Both the position numbers and the translations under genes were made by a program. From a virus, in the IMG/VR virus record IMGVR_UViG_3300033143_005424, positions 1-44,789 of that record: DNA of 44,789 nucleotides. The stretch is one strand, 5' to 3'. Positions 15,508-19,560 of this stretch are shown here, one piece after another. The notes below the pieces were generated by a model. It saw nothing but the letters and a program-made list of their open reading frames with translations, did no database searches and had not been told where the DNA came from. Position 1 is the first letter of the stretch, and the number at the start of each line of letters is the position of its first letter.

Positions 15508-15624
15508 TTAAACTAACTTAAACCATAAAATTATTAATGATCCAAATTCATTTCCTGAAAATGAAAGAGCAACTAAACATAAAGGAATTAATAAACATAA
15601 CCATGATAGGAGTACATTTTTCAT
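15508..15624 (-). CDS. Tiny membrane protein (38 aa)
   Basis: The ATG overlaps the stop of the previous gene as TAATG, with GGAGG 8 nt upstream, so expression is coupled. The product MKNVLLSWLCLLIPLCLVAL... is hydrophobic over residues 3-20 and again near its end (LIILWFKLV). It looks like a signal-anchor peptide. The function is unknown. Confidence 0.5.
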   Translation of the reverse strand: MKNVLLSWLCLLIPLCLVALSFSGNEFGSLIILWFKLV

Positions 15625-16010
15625 TATGCTGCCTCCAATTGTACTATTTGGTTGATAGCCTTTTCAGTCTCTTCTTGCAATGCTGGGGATAATATATTTA
15701 CAATAATAAAATCATTTGTATTCCCAGCATCAACATAATGTATCATTAGATTTAGATCTTTTAAAATTTGAAAAAAATATTTAATTGTATTTGGGGTTAT
15801 TTTATCTGTAGGTTCTAATACCCATATTGTTTGTGTTTTCAAGGAGTTCAAAAGAAAAGTTATTTGATCAATATTAATATCTTTAACTGGAAATATTTCG
15901 CAAAGTTCTCTAATAGACATATAATCAAGAATTTCAAAATCATGAGGAATTGCCACAACCCCAACATGGTATGATTTTCTATCATAACTATTATCATGAT
16001 AATTAGTCAT
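15624..16010 (-). CDS. Unknown protein (128 aa)
   Basis: The start MTNYHDNSYDRKS at 16010 follows GGGGGAAC; the frame could extend 10 codons upstream with a Met run, but that lies inside the preceding gene. The soluble alpha/beta product contains SIRELCEIFPVKDINIDQIT and a C-terminal acidic helix (about 108-128). It overlaps the upstream TNSSS-motif gene by 8 nt. No family is recognised. Confidence 0.55.
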   Translation of the reverse strand: MTNYHDNSYDRKSYHVGVVAIPHDFEILDYMSIRELCEIFPVKDINIDQITFLLNSLKTQTIWVLEPTDKITPNTIKYFFQILKDLNLMIHYVDAGNTNDFIIVNILSPALQEETEKAINQIVQLEAA

Positions 16011-16353
16011 AGTTGTTCCCCCAATTATCATCATCATCAATTTTAAATTTAATATTTTTAATTTTGTAGTTACTTAACTCTCCTGGAATAAATGATAACA
16101 CCATCAAATCTCTAAAATAACCAGGGATATCTGTAAAATCATTATACATAGAAGTAAATTCCCGTATAATGAAAATACCGTCTGATTTTTTATCTATTGT
16201 CAGAGGATTGTAAAATTTAATATTTCTATCAGTTCGTTTTAAAAACCTATTGAATAGATGTTCAAACTCGTCTATATCATTTAATTCAGATTCAATAGTT
16301 AAAATAAAACTAGCAGAACTAGAGTTAGTTACAAAATCTGTTTTAGTTTTCAT
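16003..16353 (-). CDS. TNSSS-motif protein 1 (116 aa)
   Basis: AAAGGAG precedes the ATG. The product opens with MKTKTDFVTNSSSASFIL, almost the same opening as two other proteins of this operon, while the rest is unrelated to either. The body is mixed alpha/beta, with an acidic helix (NDIDEFEHLFNRFLKR) and a basic/acidic C-terminal strand region ending in DDDDNWGNNYD. I recall similar DFVTNSSSSSF openings on otherwise unrelated hypothetical proteins of phages and bacteria, with no function known to me. The shared opening suggests a common processing, targeting or binding signal. Confidence 0.65.
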   Translation of the reverse strand: MKTKTDFVTNSSSASFILTIESELNDIDEFEHLFNRFLKRTDRNIKFYNPLTIDKKSDGIFIIREFTSMYNDFTDIPGYFRDLMVLSFIPGELSNYKIKNIKFKIDDDDNWGNNYD

Positions 16354-16362
16354 ATTACTCCT

Positions 16363-16818
16363 TTAACACATTCTAGTAGTTCCGTATATACTGGCAGGTT
16401 CATCAAGACCTAATTTCTCTCTTAAATTTTCCAATATCAATATTTTTTTGGATAAGTCATAACCAGAAACCTTTTCGGGATTACCACAATCATCAATATC
16501 CATCAATCCAAACCCTACAAGTGTTTTTCCTTCCGGAGCTCCATCTTCTATATCAGATAAAATGGTAATATCATTATTATGTGAAACTTTGATGTCTCCA
16601 TATCTAGTAATGAATTTAAAAATTTTCTTATAATCATCTTCATCAAGAAACAATTTAGGTTCACTTAACTCTTTATATTGTGCCTCAATTTCATCTATCT
16701 GATCTTCATAAAGAGTTGTTAGTAATATTTTATAGTTAACTTTTTTGACTACTTCAAGACCAAGAAATACAAATGAACAACTTGAACTATTTGTTATAAA
16801 ATCATTTTTTGCTTTCAT
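16363..16818 (-). CDS. TNSSS-motif protein 2 (151 aa)
   Basis: The start MKAKNDFITNSSSCSFVF at 16818 aligns with the other two motif proteins; an ATG two codons upstream is possible. The gene overlaps the end of the FmdB-like gene by 17 nt. The body (20-151) is acidic and mixed, with IDEIEAQYKELSEPKLFLDEDD and a C-terminal helix KKILILENLREKLGLDE. The motif Cys (residue 14) is not shared by the other copies. It is unrelated in sequence to its two motif-bearing neighbours beyond the first 18 residues. The function is unknown. Confidence 0.65.
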   Translation of the reverse strand: MKAKNDFITNSSSCSFVFLGLEVVKKVNYKILLTTLYEDQIDEIEAQYKELSEPKLFLDEDDYKKIFKFITRYGDIKVSHNNDITILSDIEDGAPEGKTLVGFGLMDIDDCGNPEKVSGYDLSKKILILENLREKLGLDEPASIYGTTRMC

Positions 16819-16987
16819 ACCCATCCCTTCCCCAACCAGATCCTTTTAAAGTAAAACTGGTTTGTGAAATTATTTTTTTCATTTGAACTTTACATTTATT
16901 GCATATAATTGTTTCTTCTTTTATCCTGTTTGTGATGACCTCTTTAATGTCACCACATTCAGGACATTCAAATTCATAAACTGGCAT
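16802..16987 (-). CDS. FmdB-like zinc-ribbon protein (61 aa)
   Basis: The opening MPVYEFECPECGDIKE, with cysteines at 8, 11, 29 and 32, and the ending SFTLKGSGWGRDGY match the small FmdB/zinc-ribbon family exactly in layout. The four Cys should bind one zinc. Members are often labelled putative regulators, but their biochemical role is not established. AAAGGTG lies upstream of the ATG. It sits mid-operon between a membrane protein and TNSSS-motif protein 2. Confidence 0.75.
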   Translation of the reverse strand: MPVYEFECPECGDIKEVITNRIKEETIICNKCKVQMKKIISQTSFTLKGSGWGRDGYESKK

Positions 16988-16996
16988 ATAATAAAA

Positions 16997-17416
16997 TTAA
17001 CACCTTTCTTGATAGCTTTTGAATTTATAACCTATAATAGAATTAGTTATACAAAGGATTATGAACCCTCCCATAAATATTGTACAAGTTAGCATCCAAC
17101 CATTTACAGCTAATAAAAAGCCGATAATAATATTTATAAAGAAGGAGCCAATAATAAAACCAATATTGGTTTCAAGTCCTATTTCTATTAAATTACCAAA
17201 GTTTTCAAAGTATTCATAATCACTATTAAAATCCATATAAAATGCAGACCCGAAACCATATATAACACTAGATACTGTATATAAAATCATTAAAAAGGAT
17301 GCTCCATTTGTAATTTGTTTCGAATCAGGATACGTCATACTTAAACCTATTATAATCAAGTAAAATAAATAAACAATTCCTTTAGCAATTCTTATAATAT
17401 TTTTATTTGATAACAT
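16997..17416 (-). CDS. Multi-pass membrane protein (139 aa)
   Basis: Four hydrophobic segments are visible: about 10-28 (IAKGIVYLFYLIIIGLSM), 40-56 (SFLMILYTVSSVIYGFG), 85-105 (IGFIIGSFFINIIIGFLLAV) and 106-128 (MLTCTIFMGGFIILCITN). An acidic loop (YMDFNSDYEYFENF) separates the second and third. The ribosome site AAGGAG is formed by the last codons of the KptA gene upstream, so the two are coupled. No transporter or enzyme motif is seen. Confidence 0.6.
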   Translation of the reverse strand: MLSNKNIIRIAKGIVYLFYLIIIGLSMTYPDSKQITNGASFLMILYTVSSVIYGFGSAFYMDFNSDYEYFENFGNLIEIGLETNIGFIIGSFFINIIIGFLLAVNGWMLTCTIFMGGFIILCITNSIIGYKFKSYQERC

Positions 17417-17953
17417 TTAATACTCCTTAATATATACTAATGGTACATGATTTGTTAACCACACATTATTATCAGATAAGAAAAATTTATATCCATTATT
17501 ATTCATCTCTCCTGCTTTAATAGTCATAACTAAAGCCTTTCCGTGTCGTGTTCCAACTTGTTTGGCAGTTTCTATTTCATGAGATAAATGAACATGATTT
17601 CTATTCATAGACAATAACCCATTAGATTTTTTAATAGAAGGAATAAATTTGACTGCGGTACCATGATATAGAAATTCAGGAGGCGTTTTTGATTCAAGTC
17701 CTAAATCTATATCAATCGAATGCCCTTGATTTGCTCGAATCATTAATCCATCATCACTAAAGGAAAATCGTTTTTTATTATTAGTTCTAACAATCTCCTT
17801 TAGTGATGAAAGATTTAATTTACGCCCGTGTGAGTTAACACAATCAAGTAGACTTTCAACAGATGCCCAACCATGTTCATCTAGTTTTAAACCTATCGCT
17901 TTCGGTTTGTGCCGAAGTACATAACTGAGAAATCTACTATCTGTATTTTTCAT
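17417..17953 (-). CDS. kptA: RNA 2'-phosphotransferase (KptA/Tpt1)
   Basis: All family blocks are present: SYVLRHKP (Arg14-His15), LDEHGWASVESLL, KKRFSF, MIRANQGHS (Arg73), FLYHGT, NHVHLS, VGTRHGKA (Arg136) and NVWLTNHVP. The Arg-His-Arg-Arg set used for catalysis in Tpt1 is intact, and 178 aa is the usual length. The enzyme uses NAD+ to remove the 2'-phosphate left at an RNA ligation junction. The ATG lies 2 nt after the radical-SAM stop, so the two are tightly coupled. With the nucleotidyltransferases nearby it points to RNA repair; action on 5'-phosphate or ADP-ribosylated RNA is an alternative. Confidence 0.92.
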   Translation of the reverse strand: MKNTDSRFLSYVLRHKPKAIGLKLDEHGWASVESLLDCVNSHGRKLNLSSLKEIVRTNNKKRFSFSDDGLMIRANQGHSIDIDLGLESKTPPEFLYHGTAVKFIPSIKKSNGLLSMNRNHVHLSHEIETAKQVGTRHGKALVMTIKAGEMNNNGYKFFLSDNNVWLTNHVPLVYIKEY

Positions 17954-17955
17954 TT

Positions 17956-19008
17956 TTATTCCATTAGTGCTGGGCAACAGTTAGGAGTTTCGCTTAAAAT
18001 TCTTCTAAATCTACCAAACCCTTCTCCGTTTAACCAAGCATCTGCAATTGTTGTATTTTTTAAACTTATTGAATGAGTATCATGATCAGCAAATGAACAA
18101 GGAACTAATTTCATATCTGGTGTGATATAAACTGACATTCGACTCGATTCACAAGTATCTATTGACATTTCCTGTTGTGGAGTTAATTCGGCATAAGGTT
18201 GAATTTTATTAATTAGACAACTATCCATTCCTATTTTAAAAGAAAGTTTTGTCTTATTAATCTCTTTAGCCAATTCTTTAATTTGAAATTCATTAGGAAC
18301 CCACGTAACTAAATTCTTACCATTCCCTTTCATTTTAAACAGAAGAAGAACAATGGCATTTAATGTTTCTAGATCTACAAACTTATTATATACTTCATTT
18401 TCTCCACGAAACAGTTTCATTACATCAGTATGAGTTTTAGCTGAATATATTTGATGAATATTTGTTTTACACCCAGCGGTCATAAACATATTTAAAGCGG
18501 TATATGTAAAAGTTTTATCGTACATAGAAACAGCTACGGCTCCTACATATTCTTTTGTTATACCGACTATTTTACTATTAACATTATTTCCAGCAGTAGT
18601 ATAGTTAGGAACAACTCCGTTTTCTCTTGCGTATTTAACTATTTCTTCAAAATCCTCATGGTCTTCTGGGTTCCCTCTTCCTCCCAGAGCGACCTGAGAA
18701 GCATGATGTTTAACTTGATCAATGATTCGTTTGAAGTCTTCTATCTTCATATTTGGTTCTACTTTTGACCCTTGATAGCAAAAATTACAATTGTTTTTAC
18801 AATGCCCCATAATTCCTACATCACACATTGTAGGGAGCTCGGTCATGAAAGGATCTTTTTTACCTTCAAGAGGATTTAAAACTTCAACTCCTGTTTTGGT
18901 ATTGAAAAATAATTCATAGTTTTTATTTTTGAAAAACTTATCAAACTCTCCAACAATTACCATTTTTGTGTTTGGATCAACTATAATTCGTTTCATCATT
19001 TTGTTCAT
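17956..19008 (-). CDS. Radical-SAM protein with SPASM-like cysteine tail
   Basis: The start is uncertain: ATG at 19008 (used here) or an in-frame GTG at 19017 close to AGGA. Cys70-x3-Cys74-x2-Cys77 in GHCKNNCNFCYQGS binds the S-adenosylmethionine iron-sulfur cluster, and GGRGNPEDH fits the glycine-rich SAM segment. The C-terminal part has further cysteines (DTCESSR, VPCSF, NCCPAL) like a SPASM or twitch auxiliary-cluster region. Such tails are common in peptide-modifying enzymes but also occur in others. It overlaps the 64-aa gene upstream and abuts kptA. The substrate is unknown; an RNA or a protein of this operon is possible. Confidence 0.75.
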   Translation of the reverse strand: MNKMMKRIIVDPNTKMVIVGEFDKFFKNKNYELFFNTKTGVEVLNPLEGKKDPFMTELPTMCDVGIMGHCKNNCNFCYQGSKVEPNMKIEDFKRIIDQVKHHASQVALGGRGNPEDHEDFEEIVKYARENGVVPNYTTAGNNVNSKIVGITKEYVGAVAVSMYDKTFTYTALNMFMTAGCKTNIHQIYSAKTHTDVMKLFRGENEVYNKFVDLETLNAIVLLLFKMKGNGKNLVTWVPNEFQIKELAKEINKTKLSFKIGMDSCLINKIQPYAELTPQQEMSIDTCESSRMSVYITPDMKLVPCSFADHDTHSISLKNTTIADAWLNGEGFGRFRRILSETPNCCPALME

Positions 19009-19171
19009 CGAATTCACAATTCCTTTCTTCTTTACTAAAATAAAAGAGATCTATTGGAGTCCATCCTTCTTTTAACATATCAACGGTATCTATTAATCTT
19101 TTTTTATCTTCTTCAAGTTTTTCAATACCACGATTAAAAAGATTAGATAATCTTCGGTAATATAAAGACAT
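18977..19171 (-). CDS. Small helical protein (64 aa)
   Basis: The start MSLYYRRLSNLF at 19171 follows AAGGAGG; an upstream TTG is less likely. The product has a Lys/Glu-rich helix (about 17-38) and an acidic end. Its last 32 nt overlap the radical-SAM start and it begins just after the stop of TNSSS-motif protein 3, so it is part of the coupled operon. No family is recognised. Confidence 0.5.
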   Translation of the reverse strand: MSLYYRRLSNLFNRGIEKLEEDKKRLIDTVDMLKEGWTPIDLFYFSKEERNCEFDEQNDETNYS

Positions 19172-19173
19172 TA

Positions 19174-19560
19174 TCAAAATCCTCCTTCGCCTTGTATAAC
19201 ACGAACACCCTGATCTTTAAAATCTGATTGAAATATTCCTCTTTCACATATAAGAGCTTCTTCTGGTTCTCCTTCATTAGTTGCATGAATAATATGTAAA
19301 TGGCCACCTTTTTCAATAATTGCTAGTTGTTCTAGATATTGTTCATCGTCTTTTCTTTTTTCTCCAGTTTCTATTTCAGTTCCGTACCATTCATCCCAAT
19401 ATTTATTAAGTTCAACGACATTTGTTAGACTTTCAGATAGGAGAGTTTTTATTTTTATCGGAACCATAATCTCAACTTCTCCAATATCAATATCAGGAGT
19501 ACTTGATATTATAAAAGAAGTACTAGAGCTATTTGTTACAAAATCTCTTTTTGTTTTCAT
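19174..19560 (-). CDS. TNSSS-motif protein 3 (128 aa)
   Basis: GAAAGGA precedes the ATG. The opening MKTKRDFVTNSSSTSFII matches the other two motif proteins at nearly every position, while the body is unrelated. The body holds an EVEIMVPIKIK strand, an acidic linker (TEIETGEKRKDDEQ) and a compact end with GGHLHIIHATNEGEPEEALI. It lies two genes upstream of the radical-SAM gene and directly downstream of the endonuclease gene. The motif is separated from its siblings by about 2.8 kb, so the resemblance is not simple tandem repetition of one gene. The function is unknown. Confidence 0.65.
   Translation of the reverse strand: MKTKRDFVTNSSSTSFIISSTPDIDIGEVEIMVPIKIKTLLSESLTNVVELNKYWDEWYGTEIETGEKRKDDEQYLEQLAIIEKGGHLHIIHATNEGEPEEALICERGIFQSDFKDQGVRVIQGEGGF

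Follow-up and report, generated by a model that had tools for sequence, protein, structure and literature searches.

Why should three proteins of one viral operon, with bodies that have no evident sequence in common, begin with the same short peptide? This question is raised by IMG/VR record IMGVR_UViG_3300033143_005424, a virus record of 44.8 kb whose whole length is called the window here. Three of its open reading frames (ORFs), all on the minus strand, share an N-terminal opening. It is proposed, with good confidence drawn from sequence comparison, that this 16-residue opening is the recognition site of a dedicated radical SAM/SPASM-type enzyme encoded in the same operon, which very probably modifies many unrelated proteins. 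The features concerned are the following.

19174-19560, minus strand: protein C, motif-bearing, 128 residues, from a body family that ends with a conserved GEGG[YF]
19513-19560, minus strand: motif of protein C, residues 1-16, MKTKRDFVTNSSSTSF (ORF call, DNA pattern and sequence comparison)
16363-16818, minus strand: protein B, motif-bearing, 151 residues, with a C-terminal RMC as in several other motif proteins
16771-16818, minus strand: motif of protein B, MKAKNDFITNSSSCSF
16003-16353, minus strand: protein A, motif-bearing, 116 residues, from body family F7; an alpha+beta fold preceded by a disordered N-terminal tail is predicted
16306-16353, minus strand: motif of protein A, MKTKTDFVTNSSSASF
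17956-19017, minus strand: radical SAM enzyme, 353 residues, CX3CX2C (C73, C77, C80), truncated SPASM, proposed maturase

The three ORFs had first been pointed out in a reading of the letters alone (the sequence-only reading), and all were recovered at the positions listed. Their residues 1-18 are MKTKTDFVTNSSSASFIL, MKAKNDFITNSSSCSFVF and MKTKRDFVTNSSSTSFII. The opening is indeed shared, over about 16 residues rather than the 18 initially proposed: the common pattern is MK.K.DF.TNSSS.SF (residues 1-16), which can be summarized as MKxKxDF[VI]TNSSSxSF. A degenerate DNA pattern for this motif has exactly three matches in the window, versus 0.04 expected from shuffles. Beyond residue 18, blastp detects no similarity among the three bodies (best E=1.4) and profile-profile comparison gives no link above 50% probability between their families, in agreement with the earlier statement that the bodies are unrelated. 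Searches of Pfam, NCBIfam and PHROGs assigned none of the three proteins to a family.

The opening is not restricted to the window. Pattern scans retrieved at least 119 stretches from IMG/VR and at least 116 from GTDB genomes, and an IMG/VR scan without start-codon anchor retrieved 108. Among the matches listed, to which the counts of this paragraph refer, the opening is found in more than 450 ORFs from phages, bacteria and archaea, and its phenylalanine occupies position 7 in 155 of the 159 ORFs from genomes and in 324 of the 335 from viruses. The perfect conservation of F7, V/I8, T/S9 and the serines is biased, these residues being partly demanded by the search patterns. Residue 4, demanded by no pattern, is nevertheless K or R with a single exception among 466 sequences, and D6, not demanded by the first pattern, is present in 91% of them. 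Serine codons of the TCN and AGY types are mixed at each motif position, near the background ratio, and 445 of the 466 33-mers are distinct; selection therefore acts on the peptide and not on the DNA. The bodies fall into at least 62 clusters at a phmmer threshold of E<1e-4 and 127 at 1e-10, some of them remotely linked, so that there are fewer independent folds than clusters. They include a Zn-ribbon-like type and a leucine-rich-repeat protein, and 96% show an acidic excess. Single gene clusters hold up to ten candidate tagged proteins per enzyme. Four motif proteins from Firmicutes (L368, L369, L370 and L375; 466-492 residues), mostly with the spelling ...NSSSESF..., carry a Gly/Ala-rich hydrophobic stretch behind the tag; L375, the only one of these long proteins that was tested, has no Pfam match.

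These loci are associated with one enzyme. When all neighbouring ORFs were clustered, a radical SAM protein was the one non-motif neighbour family, in 178 loci. In the genome loci, which come from many phyla, this enzyme lies at a median of 7 bp from the nearest motif gene, the two genes sharing a strand in 82 of 83 cases, and at least 26 body clusters occur within 300 bp of it. All 18 whole genomes reached via motif loci encode an enzyme of the family, at more than 270 bits and usually in a single copy; the other radical SAM proteins of these 18 genomes score below 60 bits, except for a split copy in G004.

The association is also found in genomes sampled irrespective of the motif. The enzyme (E<=1e-30) occurs in nine of 299 evenly drawn Firmicutes genomes and a strong motif (at least 36 bits, a line set after the scores were seen, with a wide score gap) in the same nine, near each other on the same contigs; the only other motif matches in these genomes are three, of 17-24 bits. 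Leaving out the centre genome, the co-occurrence is 8 versus 0 (Fisher p=7e-16). Among 326 Bacteroidota genomes, motif and enzyme are both present in the centre genome only. Among 295 genomes from the phylum of an archaeal match, both are present in G006 and G004; a further genome, G952, carries a strong motif on a contig that stops about 220 bp past the motif gene, and the enzyme is not visible there. Four of these 295 genomes provide a negative control: they encode a related radical SAM protein (122-134 bits) and have no strong motif match.

The same holds for viruses. The enzyme is encoded by 28 of the 30 motif-bearing viral contigs longer than 100 kb. A search of 50,697 phage records gave 166 that match the enzyme and 172 that match the motif; both sets come from the same Straboviridae genera, and the cultured coliphages RB16, RB43 and Lw1 carry both. 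Vibrio phage D479 encodes the enzyme and five motif proteins. In RB16, the motif genes p106 and p111 lie about 20 kb from the enzyme gene p156 (phrog_7293), so that adjacency alone cannot explain the pairing; the body of RB16p111 is found in 175 records only, which belong to the same genera as the enzyme. In the converse search, from the enzyme to the motif in viral contigs, a strict motif was found in the fetched flank at 53 of 80 loci, versus no motif match in 996 kb for the reversed control.

The window enzyme belongs to the radical SAM superfamily (PF04055, 32.3 bits for a cut-off of 29.5), and an alignment of 13 sequences of its family shows invariant C73, C77 and C80 together with GFDSC-like and PCSF motifs. 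Its match to the SPASM domain stays below the cut-off (PF13186, 17.8 versus 21.5 bits); the SPASM cysteines are kept in bacterial members of the family, such as that of L164 (25.6 bits). None of the named peptide-maturase equivalogs (PqqE, mycofactocin, PapB, GeoRSP, W_rSAM) is matched above its curated NCBIfam cut-off, the best NCBIfam scores being 45.6 for the window enzyme (cut-off 380) and 69.1 for a bacterial member (cut-off 265). Viperin/pVip was considered and rejected: the window enzyme scores 20.3 bits and the bacterial member 36.8 for a cut-off of 180, and the pVip matches are weak and partial. The best relatives of solved structure, found by profile matching, are SuiB, SkfB and PqqE, followed by weaker matches to BtrN and anSME; these are mostly peptide- or protein-modifying radical SAM enzymes. 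The enzyme is a member of one uncharacterised SPASM-type radical SAM family. In one clade of this family, the expanded-cysteine clade (L184, L009, L033, L040, L129 and most gut-type loci), an unusual cluster motif such as CVHGASGLCIKSGVQCYQ replaces CX3CX2C.

The spelling of the tag follows the clade of the enzyme and not the body that carries the tag. In a quick tree of the enzymes, the phage type and the expanded-cysteine type form clades with supports of 99 and 96; the main clade of the bacterial type has a support of 97, and the whole type needs two changes on the tree. Residue 4 is Arg in all 133 motif proteins associated with the expanded-cysteine clade (29 body clusters) and Lys in 59 of the 63 associated with the phage clade (13 body clusters). 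This split is not a matter of composition, since K/(K+R) in the bodies is the same in both clades (0.62 and 0.63). When clade labels were permuted among loci, none of 10,000 trials equalled the real concordance of 192/196, and three body clusters occurring with both clades switch from K to R. Likewise, the enzymes of RB16 and D479 group together (support 100), and all seven of their tags are spelled MK[IV]RxGFVSNSSSSSF, on different bodies. That spelling tracks the enzyme clade rather than the body argues for direct recognition.

In the proposed mechanism, MKx[KR]x[DG]F[VI][TS]NSSSxSF would be a transferable N-terminal tag read by one dedicated radical SAM/SPASM-type enzyme, which would bind it directly on many otherwise unrelated proteins and very probably modify them post-translationally. 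Modification of a protein is suggested because the best matches of solved structure are SuiB, SkfB and PqqE. It would most likely take place within or beside the Asn/Ser-rich stretch, the simplest guess because this is the sole part common to all tagged proteins; the motif would then perhaps be the modification site as well as the recognition site. This reading is based on a peptide that is conserved and fixed in position, that co-occurs almost exclusively with the enzyme in genomes and is often encoded next to it, and whose spelling covaries with the enzyme clade across unrelated bodies. As in ribosomally synthesized and post-translationally modified peptides, the gene of a proposed maturase is co-encoded with a conserved candidate substrate element. 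The precursors of such peptides are short, consist of a leader and a core, and are cleaved once modified; the motif proteins have a median length of 135 residues and reach 919 among the matches listed. The sequence-only reading had supposed that the peptide itself has a function and had named several, a modification signal and a tag read by one partner among them. These two are supported, and the partner, which that reading had missed, would be the radical SAM/SPASM-type enzyme of the same operon.

Several observations weigh against this mechanism. Two of the 30 motif-bearing viral contigs longer than 100 kb lack the enzyme, and 27 of the 80 enzyme-bearing viral loci lack a strict motif in the fetched flank; two of these 27 show near-variants (DYVTNSSS in L292, NSSSSVF in L361) and most of the others are fragments of related phages. 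One enzyme-bearing record of 38 kb and two of 16 kb, searched whole, have no motif. The pairing is strong and short of absolute. Moreover, loss of the CX2CX5CX3C half of SPASM may set the chemistry of the window enzyme apart from that of classical peptide maturases. Finally, the covariation involves dozens of bodies but only 3-4 enzyme clades, and phylogenetic dependence is its main caveat.

The alternative that survives best is that the tag serves as a leader-like docking sequence for the radical SAM enzyme while modification takes place at the C-terminal end, by analogy with ribosomally synthesized peptides whose leader is N-terminal and whose core is C-terminal. Indeed, the sequences stop flush at one shared column in 11 of the 19 body families tested, most of these with strongly conserved last residues, such as SHH, HMG, GRNG, GEGGY or GYCD; compared with neighbouring non-motif families, both the conservation of the last four residues (p=0.006) and the shared end (p=0.016) stand out. 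However, about one third of the families have ragged, unconserved C-termini, and the C-terminal sequences differ from one family to another, with no single common target residue. N-terminal docking with C-terminal modification is a serious rival, if an unlikely one. The flush conserved C-termini of many motif families (RMC being a further example) suggest a second functional end.

Simple paralogy, in which all bodies would be diverged copies of one small domain with the motif as its best-conserved part, appears very improbable. Profile links over about 50-117 columns do join some families (F0, F3, F5, F12 and the motif-less companion c135; F1 with F9; F17 with F21), but most families, including the three of the window, are unlinked, and the range of bodies, from the Zn-ribbon-like type to the leucine-rich-repeat protein and to proteins of up to 919 residues, fits poorly with a single small domain. 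A check of the window proteins, in which A and C were modelled with AlphaFold2, also suggests that the three bodies do not share one fold: the two models differ in topology, and in both of them the first residues form a loosely predicted tail outside the domain core. Residues 1-9 of protein A and 1-4 of protein C have predicted local distance difference test (pLDDT) values below 50, with a mean of 57 over residues 1-10 of protein C. Neither model was matched confidently by a solved structure when the PDB was searched.

It is very improbable that the motif directs the packaging, export or cleavage of phage proteins through a virion or host factor that recognises it, the enzyme being no more than a frequent neighbour. 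In favour of such a signal, many loci belong to large phages, and several motif genes lie clustered together. The packaging signal in particular, one of the functions evoked in the sequence-only reading, finds no support, the same motif-enzyme pair being present in the chromosomes of bacteria and archaea of many phyla, near NACHT ATPases, ABC transporters and regulators. Furthermore, the motif tracks one enzyme family in genomes sampled irrespective of it, its spelling goes with the enzyme clade, and the 20 kb between tag genes and enzyme in RB16 imply more than adjacency. Lastly, conservation of DNA or mRNA rather than peptide, as a recombination site or a translation-control element at gene starts, would agree with the fixed distance from the start codon and is already largely refuted by the mixed serine codons and the distinct 33-mers, which leave it hardly any credence.

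In bacterial and archaeal chromosomes, a recurrent operon comprises a NACHT/STAND ATPase followed by a motif-less companion (c135), a motif protein and the enzyme. The N-terminus of the ATPase is variable (DUF4062, SMEK and others), with a partial similarity to Avs2, and profile comparison relates c135 to the motif protein (95.6% probability). Besides L164:1266-5793, L134:4229-7998, L130:2537-7169 and L190:1-3804, about 30 genome loci have this arrangement, which is found in Bacteroidota, Alphaproteobacteria, Firmicutes and methanogens. It looks like an undescribed conflict system with a partial likeness to Avs2. AVAST type 2 itself was rejected for the chromosomal NACHT neighbours (73.3 bits for a cut-off of 1000; partial PADLOC matches only). 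Conflict systems are a plausible setting for some tagged proteins. Other contexts include a helix-turn-helix gene in Lachnospiraceae and vWA/MoxR genes: a vWA-domain protein, RB16p109 (L376:1921-4140), is encoded next but one to motif gene p111, and vWA/MoxR genes also adjoin motif genes in Ruminococcus (L168). In L390 and L391, motif gene and enzyme lie amid what appear by eye to be iron-type ABC transporter genes (binding protein, permease, ATPase), a setting that hints at a metal-related role in some Firmicutes.

In the window, the operon is a tightly packed minus-strand run from 20662 to 15624, with gaps of -41 to +9 bp, which also encodes an FmdB-like zinc ribbon and a PD-(D/E)XK-like nuclease. 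Its other listed features are as follows.

18977-19177, minus strand: small ORF, 66 residues, in the same operon, situated between gene C and the enzyme gene and overlapping each of them
17417-17977, minus strand: RNA 2'-phosphotransferase of the KptA/Tpt1 family, in the same operon
15624-16040, minus strand: motif-less protein with a 'VAIPxxFxIxxY' signature

The phage-encoded KptA/Tpt1 phosphotransferase shares the operon with the tagged proteins, and no evidence tying it to the tag system was found. A protein of the last type, without motif and with the signature 'VAIPxxFxIxxYLxMRE', often neighbours the phage enzyme (L322, L330, L331, L333 and others), including at loci where no motif gene was found, and relatives adjoin the radical SAM gene in related phages. 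Profile comparison did not support the idea that the window copy is a motif-less form of body family F14.

Globally, hundreds of 'hypothetical proteins' of phages, gut bacteria and archaea carry this opening without any assigned role, and its link to one enzyme makes an orphan motif a testable enzyme-substrate system, for which the coliphages RB16, RB43 and Lw1 are lab-ready models. A wider reading, slightly less likely than not, is that of a general protein-tagging system: a portable 16-residue tag would mark any body for one radical SAM enzyme and modification would alter the function of dozens of proteins, large phages carrying the enzyme with batteries of tagged proteins, and bacteria and archaea using the pair in NACHT-type conflict operons. 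If true, a radical SAM enzyme treating many unrelated folded proteins via one tag would depart from the one-enzyme, one-peptide pattern of the known maturases and could give new chemistry and a portable tag for protein modification. In the openly searchable literature (subscription papers and preprints being outside reach), no published description of the motif, of the enzyme-motif pair or of the NACHT association was found, and a text search for the motif strings returned one unrelated paper. Radical SAM enzymes paired with substrate peptides are already known; one enzyme family serving many unrelated whole proteins via one N-terminal tag, in phages and in cells, was not found in the family libraries or the literature searched.

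Four known systems invite comparison. The capsid-targeting sequence of phage T4 is a short N-terminal sequence carried by unrelated small phage proteins, which directs head packaging and protease cleavage. It resembles the present motif as one short N-terminal sequence on unrelated proteins, whereas the motif described here is also chromosomal and is tied to an enzyme. The anaerobic sulfatase-maturating enzymes (anSME) are radical SAM/SPASM enzymes acting on Ser/Cys in a short motif within protein substrates. They are alike in combining such an enzyme with a short motif in proteins, and give a weak profile match to the window enzyme family; however, anSME serves one enzyme family through an internal motif, while the present motif stands at the N-terminus of unrelated bodies. 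The FxSxx peptide and radical SAM/SPASM genes of nucleoside triphosphate-dependent conflict systems (PMC7159879) resemble the present loci in that a conserved short peptide motif and a radical SAM/SPASM gene occur in a conflict neighbourhood centred on an NTPase. Here, by contrast, the motif is different, the proteins are much larger and the NTPase is NACHT/Avs2-like; the pair also occurs without any NTPase, and in phages. The fourth comparison is with the radical SAM/SPASM peptide maturases (PqqE-PqqA, SuiB-streptide, the sactipeptide enzyme SkfB and mycofactocin), in which an enzyme is likewise co-encoded with candidate substrates that share a conserved element. By contrast, the candidates here are entire proteins, about 100-900 residues long, whose bodies are of dozens of unrelated kinds and whose tag lies at the very N-terminus; one enzyme would serve up to ten candidates per cluster, and its family scores far below every curated NCBIfam cut-off.

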